This document shows, one piece after another, positions 8,125 through 35,247 of a DNA stretch of 64,000 nt. Made by a program: the position numbers and the translations under genes. The notes beneath the pieces are model-generated. The model worked only from the letters and a program-made list of their open reading frames with translations, was not told the origin of the DNA and ran no database searches. How positions within the stretch are numbered: position 1 is the stretch's first letter; the number at the start of each line of letters is the position of its first letter. Source of the DNA: Leptolyngbya subtilissima AS-A7 (GTDB lineage: Bacteria > Cyanobacteriota > Cyanobacteriia > Phormidesmidales > Phormidesmidaceae); the NCBI RefSeq assembly GCF_039962255.1, contig NZ_JAMPKY010000002.1, positions 434,001-498,000 on the forward strand, written 5' to 3'.

Positions 8125-9216
8125 ACAAGAATTCGCTGGCAGCCCGTAGGCTCGAAGCAGATGCCGCGATGGTCAGACTGCCTGTAGGGGCGATCGCATT
8201 ACCCAAGACAAATTACAGGGCAATTCACCATTCGCGTTGACAACTTGGCCTCAATGACTTGAGACTTTTACACCAAGCAAACCCAACTATGGATTGGTTC
8301 TCTCGCCCAGCGTGGTCAAAGGCCTGTCTTGAGCCTTAGGCTTTTGGCGAGATTGACCTCATTTTAACTGGCTGCGAATAAAACTCTGTCGTCTAGCCAA
8401 CCGACAAAACTGCTGAACGAAAGAAAAAGACCTGTTAACCGGCTCTAAAAACTCCTCAGCCCGTTACTCAGCTCGCCTCAAGAAATGCTGACAAACGCTG
8501 CGAATGCCCCAATTAGCTCACTTTTAGAGTCCTTAAAAGAGTATGAAGGACAATATTATGAGCCGCTGATTTAGAAGTATGAAGTTAAATGAATTAGTGC
8601 GTCAAAGAGCGGATTTTTTTGACTTCAAGCCCTGAAACCCTTATCGTTAATGCCTTTTCGATGTAACAAAAGCTTCATGAACAATTCTAAATATTTCCAG
8701 AAGCTGCTTTACATAGCTTTACGCAACACCTTGCTACTTCCGGATGACGTGCTTAGGTAAAAACTAGCTGTTCTCGATTATCTTAATCAATTTGTTGACC
8801 AGATGAATTCTAGATTAAAAAACAGTTCCACCTGTTGTGTCACGACTTAAAGATAATAAATGCTGATTTCCTTAAGACTAAGGCTATTTATAAGTCTGCG
8901 TCAGTCACCCAAATTTATGAAGTTATTGTAGGCCAACGTTTTGATTGAATGCTTTTGCGATCGCAAAAGCATGAAAACAGAAGAGCGAGAAATTAAGAAA
9001 AGCTCAATAGTCTTAAGTTGTGGCATTTTGGCTTTCCTACTCAAACTTCATCTGCTACAGGTCAATTGGCTGAGAGAATTTAGCGCCACTCAACTCTGAC
9101 CAGGAGCTTGAGCCGCCGCATCTCATAGGAGCGTCTACGGGTCTAGGGCAACCGTTTAGTTGAACATTCAAACGTTAGGAACAAGGCTGATCAAGCGTGA
9201 ATGAGGTTTGGCGTTG
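8125..9216. other. 1.1-kb A/T-rich intergenic region
   Basis: I see no gene of credible length on either strand. The stretch is markedly richer in A/T than its neighbours, most strongly between about 8500 and 9010. It contains the glgP upstream region on the right of 8097 and the perfect palindrome at 8949-8972. No tRNA or T-run terminator was recognised. Confidence 0.5.
8949..8972. repeat. 24-bp perfect palindrome built around a HIP1 octamer
   Basis: The arms ATGCTTTTGCGA and TCGCAAAAGCAT meet with no loop, centred on GCGATCGC. Ordinary HIP1 sites in this window are not extended this far, so this copy is exceptional. It could be a binding site for a dimeric protein or a chance extension of HIP1. 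Confidence 0.7.
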
Positions 9217-32769: not shown

Positions 32770-33477
32770 TTAGACAAAGTGGTAGGGGGGTAGGGGGTCG
32801 CTGAGCATGAGGATCCAGTGGTTGGTCTGCGATCGCCACTCCTCTACCCGCTGCTCTAGGCTCTCGGCAGCGGCGCGATCGATCAGCAAATACACTCGCG
32901 CTTCTCCGGCGGGGCTTTCGGCCTCAATGTAGTTGTCGTAGGTGGCATGAAGGTCGTTGAGCACCTGGTCAAGCTCATAGTGCTGCTGCTCCTGGGCAGC
33001 GGTTTGATCCTGGAGGCGCTGCTTTTTCGCCAAAAAGTAGTCGCGCCCGGTGAGCCCTTCAGCTAGGGGCGGCAGCTCAGTTGGTTGGGCAATCAGCTTG
33101 AGCTGGTATTCAACTTGGTGACCTAGGATGGCGAGCTTGGCGGCATAGTCGGCTCCCTGGCTGGCCAGGTGAACCTTGAGATGCTCAATGGAAGCAATCT
33201 GAGTGCCAAACCGCAGGGGCAGCAGGGGCGTGTGCTGAAACAGCTCGCAAATGACGCGATCGTGGCTGAGCACCGCGTTTAGCAGCCGCGGTTCGTCGGT
33301 TTGCAGGGTCTCTAAATCGACGCCGGTTTCAACTATGGCGGCAACGTTGTCTACGGCAATCAGCCGGGTGGGTGCAGCCAGCCCCAGGGGTAAGGGCAGA
33401 GGCTGCAAGGGGCGAGGGCAAATGCTGTAGAGGTAGATGGGCTCTTGGATTAGCCCTGGAGTTAGCTCTGGAGACAC
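32770..33477 (-). CDS. GvpL/GvpF family gas-vesicle-type protein
   Basis: 235 residues. The N-terminal YLYSICP, the middle HDRVICELFQHTPLLPLRFGT and the C-terminal LMLSDPLPPYHFV are signature segments of GvpF/GvpL. In gas vesicle gene clusters these are minor shell or chaperone proteins. No gvpA, gvpC, gvpN or gvpK lies in this window, so the gene is an orphan here. It follows the 542-residue protein on the same strand with a gap of 141 bases, and is convergent with amt. Confidence 0.85.
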   Translation of the reverse strand: MSPELTPGLIQEPIYLYSICPRPLQPLPLPLGLAAPTRLIAVDNVAAIVETGVDLETLQTDEPRLLNAVLSHDRVICELFQHTPLLPLRFGTQIASIEHLKVHLASQGADYAAKLAILGHQVEYQLKLIAQPTELPPLAEGLTGRDYFLAKKQRLQDQTAAQEQQHYELDQVLNDLHATYDNYIEAESPAGEARVYLLIDRAAAESLEQRVEEWRSQTNHWILMLSDPLPPYHFV

Positions 33478-33618
33478 GATATCTAAAGCCTTTGGGATGC
33501 GCCACAGTTCGATCTCACTCTAGGCGATTTGCCCCCTGGCTCGGGATGTCTCTGGCACAAACATTTACGGCTTTTGCCATCGTTGGGACGGAGAACAAAC
33601 CGCCTTGAGAATCTGTTG

Positions 33619-35247
33619 CTACAGCGTAGTTTGTAGGGTAAAGCACCAGTCGAGGGTGAGCTGTCCTGCCTGGCAGCCGGCCTCGCCATCGAGCCGGTGC
33701 AGATGAATTGGGGTGCCCTGGCGCAGAGCCGCGATCGCAGGCGTATGTGCGCTCAGATCGTGATCCACAAGTGCGGTTAAATCGGCCACCGTGAGCGGCG
33801 GTCCCCACGGGTCATCGGCCACATCGACGGCGGCCTCAGCGGGTAGCGCCTGGGGCGCAGTAGGCAAGAGTCGGCCTCGGCCTAAGTCCACAATCCAGCT
33901 GCGGTTAGAGGTAGTAAGCTGCATCAGCGGGCGCAGGTAGAGGCTGCCCTGCTGCCAGCTCAGTCCTGGAGGCAGCACCTGGGCCGATACGCCCCCCATC
34001 AGCTGCATCACCCGTTCTGAGCTTTGAGCTAGGTGCCAACGCAGCCGGGGCCACAGGTCTGCCACCAACACCGGCTCATGGACAAAGGTGTGCTTAAATA
34101 GGCCGCTGGCTCCCTGCACCAGATCGGTAGCGGCATAGGTGACGCGGTTGCAAAGATCTTCCCGTTGGCGAAGCCGCTCCGAAGGAGTATCGCCCTCTGA
34201 GCCCAGCAGCATTTGGGGTAGATGCTGCGCCACAACCTGCTCGGCGTAGGCACTCAGAAAAGTTTGAATCCAGCGTTCATCGGTAAAGGTGAGCCAGTCG
34301 CCCAGCACGCCAGCGGTAGCATCGTCTGGACCATCAACCAGGGTGCTGGCAAAGTCATCTAGGGTAAAGCTCGACACGGTTGTCCCAGCGCTCTGCTTAC
34401 CCTCCGGCGGTAGATACAACGCGTCGGGCATCACCTCGCCATGGCTACTATAGGGCTGAGATGGGCCTTGGGTCTCCATTTCAGCCAGGTGCAGGCGGAG
34501 GTGCAAAATACCGTTCTGCCAAGGGTGAAAGGGACGGAGGGCATCAACTTCGCAGCCGTCAACGAGTAAAGCACCCAAGCCAGGCTGGGTGCAGCCCACT
34601 ACTTGCTGAGCCACCTGAGCCAACAGGTCACCACAGGACAGGAGCTGGCCGTCGAGGTCGTTCTCCAACAGTTGAATTTCGATATTTTCAGCCAAATATA
34701 GCGACGACACTGGATCTGTTTGAGTTACCAGATCGAGGGCGTAGCCAGTCTTTTCCGAGGTGAGGGTAAGCACCGGCACTAGGCGCACAATGCGGATTGC
34801 CCCCTGCGCCTGAGGACTAAAGATGCGGGCCTGCACACCCTCGATGAGGCGCATCACTTCGTAGCCACTGCTGGCAAGCATCCACAGCAGGTGGGGCACC
34901 AGGTGGGGCACCGGCACCAGGACGCTGGCGGAGGGCACTGGTAGGGTTGACGCCGTTAACAGGTCCAACAACTCTCCAGTTTCTTCGCTTAGGTAGGGGG
35001 CCAGGTTGTCGGGGGTTTGGGGCAGGTCGGCGGGCCAGCCGCCCATGGGCGATCGCAGTCTCATGCTCTGGGCTACCAACTGCTTCACCGCTGCCGCGAT
35101 CGCCGGCACGCGCCCCAAGGTGGGGCGCTCGATGGCCAAGGGAGCCATGCGGCACACCGTATTGCCCAGGGTTGCAGCTGTAGCACCCGGCAGGGCCAAA
35201 TCGGCTTGCAGCCAGGGGGTCAGCGATCGCACAGCAGAAGAAACCAT
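33619..35247 (-). CDS. Unrecognised protein with about four internal modules
   Basis: 542 residues; I do not recognise the family. Reading along the protein shows related blocks at about residues 111-174, 203-260, 393-454 and 484-541. Each ends in a hydrophobic beta-like pattern such as GAIRIVRLVPVLTLTS, NGILHLRLHLAEMET, GSLYLRPLMQLTTS or GQLTLDWCFTLQTT, preceded by helical sequence such as LWMLASSGYEVMRLIEGV and RWHLAQSSERVMQLMGGV. No signal peptide, membrane helix or enzyme motif is visible. The gene lies upstream of the GvpL/F gene and downstream of leuD on the same strand. Confidence 0.75.
   Translation of the reverse strand: MVSSAVRSLTPWLQADLALPGATAATLGNTVCRMAPLAIERPTLGRVPAIAAAVKQLVAQSMRLRSPMGGWPADLPQTPDNLAPYLSEETGELLDLLTASTLPVPSASVLVPVPHLVPHLLWMLASSGYEVMRLIEGVQARIFSPQAQGAIRIVRLVPVLTLTSEKTGYALDLVTQTDPVSSLYLAENIEIQLLENDLDGQLLSCGDLLAQVAQQVVGCTQPGLGALLVDGCEVDALRPFHPWQNGILHLRLHLAEMETQGPSQPYSSHGEVMPDALYLPPEGKQSAGTTVSSFTLDDFASTLVDGPDDATAGVLGDWLTFTDERWIQTFLSAYAEQVVAQHLPQMLLGSEGDTPSERLRQREDLCNRVTYAATDLVQGASGLFKHTFVHEPVLVADLWPRLRWHLAQSSERVMQLMGGVSAQVLPPGLSWQQGSLYLRPLMQLTTSNRSWIVDLGRGRLLPTAPQALPAEAAVDVADDPWGPPLTVADLTALVDHDLSAHTPAIAALRQGTPIHLHRLDGEAGCQAGQLTLDWCFTLQTTL

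Follow-up and report, generated by a model that had tools for sequence, protein, structure and literature searches.

The window analysed here is a stretch of 64,000 nucleotides from Leptolyngbya subtilissima AS-A7, and it contains two neighboring genes on the minus strand, one encoding a protein of 542 aa and one, starting 141 bp downstream of it, encoding a GvpL/F protein of 235 aa, which we assign to GvpW below. Table 1 lists both genes and the parts of the longer protein; the coordinates and strand that had been given for the two genes in the original prediction were correct on re-examination. The order leuD, 542-aa gene, gvpW, amt is common to 14 named loci, in which the proteins are 68–90% identical (six loci are titled Nodosilinea, and the other eight come from Leptolyngbya, Phormidium tenue, Tildeniella, Shackletoniella and further filamentous cyanobacteria). 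This shared order in relatives and the recurrent linkage reported below agree with the earlier proposal that the two genes form a pair.

Table 1. Genes of the pair and parts of the 542-aa protein, in window coordinates
Feature	Coordinates	Strand	Evidence or content
542-aa protein gene	33619..35247	-	MazG-derived stretch, two pairs of KGK-like modules and linker
Residues 44-106, MazG-derived, EExxE at 88-92	34930..35118	-	hhalign, 3crc match, column counts
Module 1, residues 110-192	34672..34920	-	module HMM, hhalign; invariant W122 in 61/61
Module 2, residues 194-262, nearest to KGK	34462..34668	-	hhalign to KGK 95.6%, E 4e-9
Linker, residues 263-317, length varies among relatives	34297..34461	-	pLDDT below 50 at 259-311
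Helical pair before second module pair, residues 318-390	34078..34296	-	structure models
Module 3, residues 391-475	33823..34077	-	hhalign to module 1 E 8.3e-27
Module 4, residues 476-542	33622..33822	-	hhalign to module 2 E 2.2e-14
gvpW, second (diverged) GvpL/F by tree placement, 235 aa	32770..33477	-	PF06386 123.1 bits; GvpW side of tree, 100/100

No Pfam model scores over its cut-off in the 542-aa protein. We used HMMs built from the modules of its own family, and hhalign profiles made from up to 61 family members (all E-values are those of single comparisons). The N-terminal half matches the C-terminal half with a probability of 100% (E 1.8e-45), and the six comparisons between modules give probabilities from 84.2% to 99.8%, with E-values of 1.6e-10 (modules 2 and 3), 2.2e-10 (3 and 4), 4.2e-7 (1 and 4) and 8.3e-7 (1 and 2) besides the two found in Table 1; reversed-profile controls range from 0.048 to 0.59. 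By these comparisons the protein consists of four related modules in two pairs with a linker between them. The original prediction had read about four related modules by eye (residues 111-174, 203-260, 393-454 and 484-541), pending a profile self-comparison; the HMMs place the modules close to these positions, and the significant match of the two halves removes the concern that there might be no internal repeats. Module HMMs find all four modules in 59 of the 61 members; one of the other two has three and the last has two. The linker can be as long as about 620 residues, as in the 1078-aa relative L204. No sequence match was found between the helical stretches that precede the module pairs (residues 44-112 and 318-398; hhalign 0.8%, E 0.034), so a duplication is shown only for the modules.

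AlphaFold2 models of the whole protein (pLDDT 79.4, pTM 0.79) and of the C-terminal half (pLDDT 85.7, pTM 0.77) predict the same plan for each half, i.e., two long helices followed twice by helices and a long hairpin. Foldseek found no match in the PDB at E ≤ 0.001 for either model, and the best VIA-align Z scores (4.1 for the whole protein and 5.2 for the C-terminal half) fall on the helical stretches, which neither identifies a known fold nor shows a new one. We note that in one genome (G050) the 542-aa-type gene consists of two ORFs with their junction at position 8905 (L105:8522-10038, minus strand), beside an intact gvpW, which may be a frameshift or a sequencing error.

The KGK domain (PF08872) is found over the Pfam cut-off in four of ten relatives scanned (L031, L032, L097 and L111); two of the other six (L034 and L033) have hits below the cut-off and four have none. 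The window protein has no KGK hit at E ≤ 10 and so does not belong to this family by Pfam. Its modules do resemble KGK by profile: against a KGK profile of 14 proteins, the match to module 2 (Table 1) is followed by module 4 (90.6%, E 1.5e-7), module 3 (68%, E 6.2e-6) and, weakly, module 1 (14%, E 4.3e-4), with reversed controls at E 0.84 or worse. On this profile similarity, the modules are remotely related to the KGK domain, which ‘potentially mediates protein-protein interactions’ (PMC5827413). The likeness lies in the profile match to modules 2 and 4 and in the four relatives over the Pfam cut-off; the described KGK proteins, however, are small (about 120 aa; PMC5827413), whereas the window protein joins four modules in one chain with a MazG-like stretch.

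That stretch is clear by profile. Residues 44-112 match MazG-type proteins with 99.4% probability (E 4.1e-20), positions 56-102 of the family profile match E. coli MazG (3crc, E 1.6e-7), and the counterpart in the C-terminal half has a weak MazG signal (22.7%, E 1.8e-4). Judged from these alignments, residues from about 44 to 106 derive from MazG. The original prediction had called the 542-aa protein unrecognised; this holds in that no Pfam family claims it, and is now partly resolved by the KGK-like modules and the MazG-derived N-terminal stretch.

MazG enzymes bind metal through two motifs, EExxE and ExxD. Among 61 members, the first is mostly kept (E88 in 53, with D in 6; E89 in 60; E92 in 38, with D in 15), while a search of columns 62-99 and 110-139 did not turn up the second; by our reading, 50 of the 61 have P at position 118 and at most one has D there, and 18 have D or E at position 115. 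The protein might still be a MazG-type metal-dependent nucleotide hydrolase that uses the KGK-like modules as binding arms and has an activity useful to vesicle-making cells. We consider this quite unlikely: the largely kept EExxE and the clear MazG stretch speak for it, and E136, present in 54 of the 61 members, could serve as a substitute ligand, but ExxD is missing where it is expected (positions 115 and 118) and no family member scanned reaches the Pfam MazG cut-off (12.8 bits against 22 for the window protein). By these measures the window protein does not qualify as a MazG enzyme; it resembles the MazG nucleoside triphosphate pyrophosphohydrolase in residues of about 44-106 and in EExxE, and differs from it in the low Pfam score, in ExxD and in the absence of the rest of MazG from the alignment.

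The 235-aa protein is a full-length GvpL/F by Pfam, covering positions 2-244 of the 245 of PF06386 with a score far over the cut-off of 23.6 bits (Table 1), and it does not reach the GvpF equivalog model (12.8 bits against 350). A tree of 40 rows, which took every second GvpF hit of L066-L095, separates 21 GvpF proteins from 17 pair-type proteins and two GvpW with the support given in Table 1, and the window protein falls on the GvpW side. The GvpW of the tree come from clusters of the type of L103 and L104, which have the order gvpA-C-N-J-K-F-G-V-W; this order fits the gene set reported for Anabaena (PMC7204071), and the likeness to Anabaena rests on that reported order. GvpW has been described as a distant relative of GvpL/F (PMC2963123), and the functions of GvpV and GvpW have been called unknown (PMC8700078). 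Going by the tree, the ‘lone’ GvpL/F of the window is GvpW, which cyanobacterial gas-vesicle gene sets carry as a second and diverged GvpL/F; it groups with the GvpW of A-C-N-J-K-F-G-V-W clusters, but unlike the GvpW of Anabaena and Microcystis it is detached from the gvp cluster and lies beside the 542-aa gene.

To see where both proteins occur, we used a class sample of 195 cyanobacterial genomes, searched for the 542-aa family, GvpL/F, gvpA and GvpW. A GvpW match (E ≤ 1e-20) is present in 100 of the 101 genomes with gvpA. It is also present in 10 genomes without gvpA, in full in G088, G122, G139, G168 and G218 and in part in G045, G065, G078, G101 and G138 (the partial matches are in family f13); these GvpW-type genes may reflect vesicle loss or a second use of GvpW.

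The gas-vesicle genes of the window's own genome lie elsewhere. The original prediction had seen no gvp neighbors of the GvpL/F gene in the window, and the matched gvp genes indeed all lie on another contig (C3, about 370-380 kb), namely all three GvpA-type matches, the sole gvpK match over the cut-off, and one other GvpL/F that is a stronger match than the window copy (the own-genome searches covered GvpA-type, gvpK and GvpL/F genes). At this locus (L096), gvpA, a C-like coiled-coil gene, gvpN, gvpJ, a short ORF and gvpK share one strand, and gvpF and gvpG lie on the opposite strand at a distance of about 4.4 kb. We assigned the names C, N and G from gene order and similarity to L103. PF06386 finds no GvpW on this stretch, and the GvpW of the genome is the window copy. 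We note that one of the three GvpA-type matches lies inside the gvpK ORF (L096:4666-5139, minus strand), where the PF00741 match (C3:370677-370793) is beside the GvpK match (370839-371078), so that this GvpK, by its domain matches, has a GvpA-like C-terminal stretch.

Of the two options offered earlier, that the GvpL/F half no longer makes vesicles or that it works with gvp genes located elsewhere, the second gains from the gvp genes on C3 and from the co-occurrence of both genes with gvpA (see below); gvp genes elsewhere, which had been listed as an argument against the proposal, are also what C3 provides. The first option finds no support, since the genome does have gvp genes elsewhere. Its one favorable point is that the pair and the gvp genes are on different contigs; as gvpA, gvpJ, gvpK and GvpF are all present, and as the GvpL/F is a GvpW, a protein matched in nearly every gvpA-carrying genome of the sample, we regard it as highly improbable that this protein has ceased to serve vesicles here.

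Among the matches listed, the 542-aa-type gene is found within 3 kb of GvpW in 25 of 51 class-sample genomes with both, from seven families, and is not near it in 26 (including all 16 of f24); within the genus the two are apart in 6 of 23 genomes with both. Many of the separated cases are genes on different contigs of fragmented assemblies, which proves no distance. Whether neighboring species keep the genes apart, an outcome that would have spoken against a pair, therefore has a mixed answer. In three loci (L097, L098 and L099) the 542-aa-type gene is followed by gvpW, an ArsA-like gene of opposite orientation, an AAA gene and gvpA-C-N-J-K-F-G; in L100 the pair lies on the opposite strand directly after gvpA-C-N-J, and in G047 about 12 kb separate the pair from the gvp cluster. 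The 542-aa protein co-occurs with known Gvp proteins and is in some genomes linked to them, and differs from GvpA, J, K, F, G and the C-like protein in having no profile similarity to them. Two further identities were tried and rejected. The 542-aa protein is not a form of GvpV, as a gvpV-like ORF lies beside it in L101 and L123, and the modules are not relatives of GvpA-type proteins, with which they share a helix and hairpin (best hhalign E 0.057 against GvpA, GvpJ, GvpK, GvpF, GvpG and the C-like protein).

At least 52 of the 195 class-sample genomes contain the 542-aa family. Among the matches listed, gvpA is present in 50 of the 52 genomes with the protein and in 51 of the 143 without it (Fisher p 1.4e-15, phylogeny being ignored). 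The count treats as lacking the protein nine genomes with a second match beyond those listed (G036, G092, G108, G139, G140, G147, G172, G190 and G202); as four of these are without gvpA, the worst case is 50/56 instead of 50/52. One of the 52 (G052) has only a 214-aa ORF with two modules, and G084, included in the 101 with gvpA, is represented by a single weak match (1.3e-5). By family, again among the matches listed, gvpA is found in 12 of 12 genomes with the protein and 0 of 9 without it in f1, while f15 and f24, each considered by itself, show no significant association (p 0.21 and 1, respectively), and the sample has no gvpA-carrying genome of f23, f5, f32 or f4 that is counted with the protein. 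Since 51 of the 101 gvpA-carrying genomes lack the protein among these matches, it is not needed everywhere.

In the genus of the window, gvpA, GvpW and the 542-aa protein are found together in 23 of 26 genomes, and the other three (G005, which is 85% complete, G006 and G018) lack all three; the count comprises 22 further genomes (19 with all three and 3 without) and G000, G004, G012 and G020. In G005, only about 20 bp separate the end of leuD from amt, and both genes of the pair are missing there (L193). Neither the pair nor amt was matched in G006 and G018, in 1.3 kb and 1.8 kb after leuD, respectively, and only G005 represents an empty site. Presence and absence are concordant inside genera g1 (23 against 3), g2 (G026, G090 and G214 against G110) and g33 (G064 against G196).

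This concordance and the contiguity with gvp clusters argue against a function that lies outside gas vesicles or extends beyond them, in which the pair would track gvpA through shared lineage or habitat. Such a function seems unlikely to us, and it has points in its favor: the Fisher test ignores phylogeny, GvpW occurs without gvpA in G088, G122 and G139 (and partially in the five f13 genomes), and G168 and G218 keep both proteins without gvpA. In the latter two, the 542-aa-type copies are open (514 and 448 aa, four modules each), and the gvpK matches, at 17.1 and 17.0 bits, stay below the cut-off of 25. Either these genomes have recently lost their gas vesicles or both proteins have a second use.

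With these results, a role in gas vesicles is very probable for the 542-aa protein, judging from its gene neighborhoods and distribution. As an explanation of the whole, we favor, at about even odds, that the pair belongs to the gas-vesicle gene set but lies apart from its main part, and is made up of GvpW and a so far undescribed family of cyanobacterial accessory proteins. Each half of the 542-aa protein consists of a helical stretch, the first one from MazG, and two KGK-like helix-plus-hairpin modules. GvpF has been reported to be the main binding partner of GvpA2 and likely its chaperone, and GvpL to bind GvpS, K and J (PMC11445434). Taken together, the four modules of a protein whose gene adjoins gvpW, the contacts ascribed to KGK and the binding by GvpF and GvpL would most simply suggest a multivalent scaffold or chaperone partner, which would bind GvpW and perhaps shell-type proteins during vesicle assembly. 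That it acts as a scaffold working with GvpW is a tentative proposal, which we would put well short of even. Somewhat more plausible, and still below even, is the general picture of an unnamed gas-vesicle protein in about half of gvpA-carrying cyanobacteria, a four-armed scaffold (a disarmed MazG piece with KGK-like modules) that would organise GvpW and shell-type subunits in assembly; the family would then have been overlooked owing to its absence from Anabaena-type clusters such as L103 and L104 and its frequent location away from the gvp cluster.

In the literature searched, which leaves most subscription journals outside, we found no link of KGK or MazG-like proteins to gas vesicles, and the 542-aa family is absent from the gvp gene lists in the available parts of PMC7204071, PMC8700078, PMC5259702 and PMC2963123. 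A cyanobacterial co-occurrence study reported for gas vesicles a module comprising eight ortholog groups and two ATPases with no known function (PMC5862535), with no KGK or MazG-like protein named in the available part of that paper. The family is most likely an undescribed accessory part of the gas-vesicle system, which is itself known. Gas vesicles are genetically encoded ultrasound agents, and for the question of how accessory proteins build the gas-vesicle shell the family, present in 50 of the 101 gvpA-carrying sampled genomes and almost nowhere else among the matches listed, would be a directly testable missing part; it would also provide a candidate partner for GvpW and a functional context for the KGK domain.

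Other genes found in the neighborhood of the genes discussed here include an ArsA-like ATPase and an AAA gene, which are beside gvp genes in six of six loci (L097-L099 and L102-L104; a link of ArsA homologues to gas vesicles was already proposed, PMC2963123), and, in G168 and G218, an HPF-like gene beside gvpW with a lipB-like gene nearby (L197:6644-9137 and L198:4797-7132; names by ORF reading). On contig C7 of the window's own genome, a KGK gene follows an 809-aa ORF that we read as dynamin-like, and then comes a short HNH-like ORF (L173:5549-9052, plus strand), as reported for the KGK clade of dynamin-like proteins (PMC5827413).
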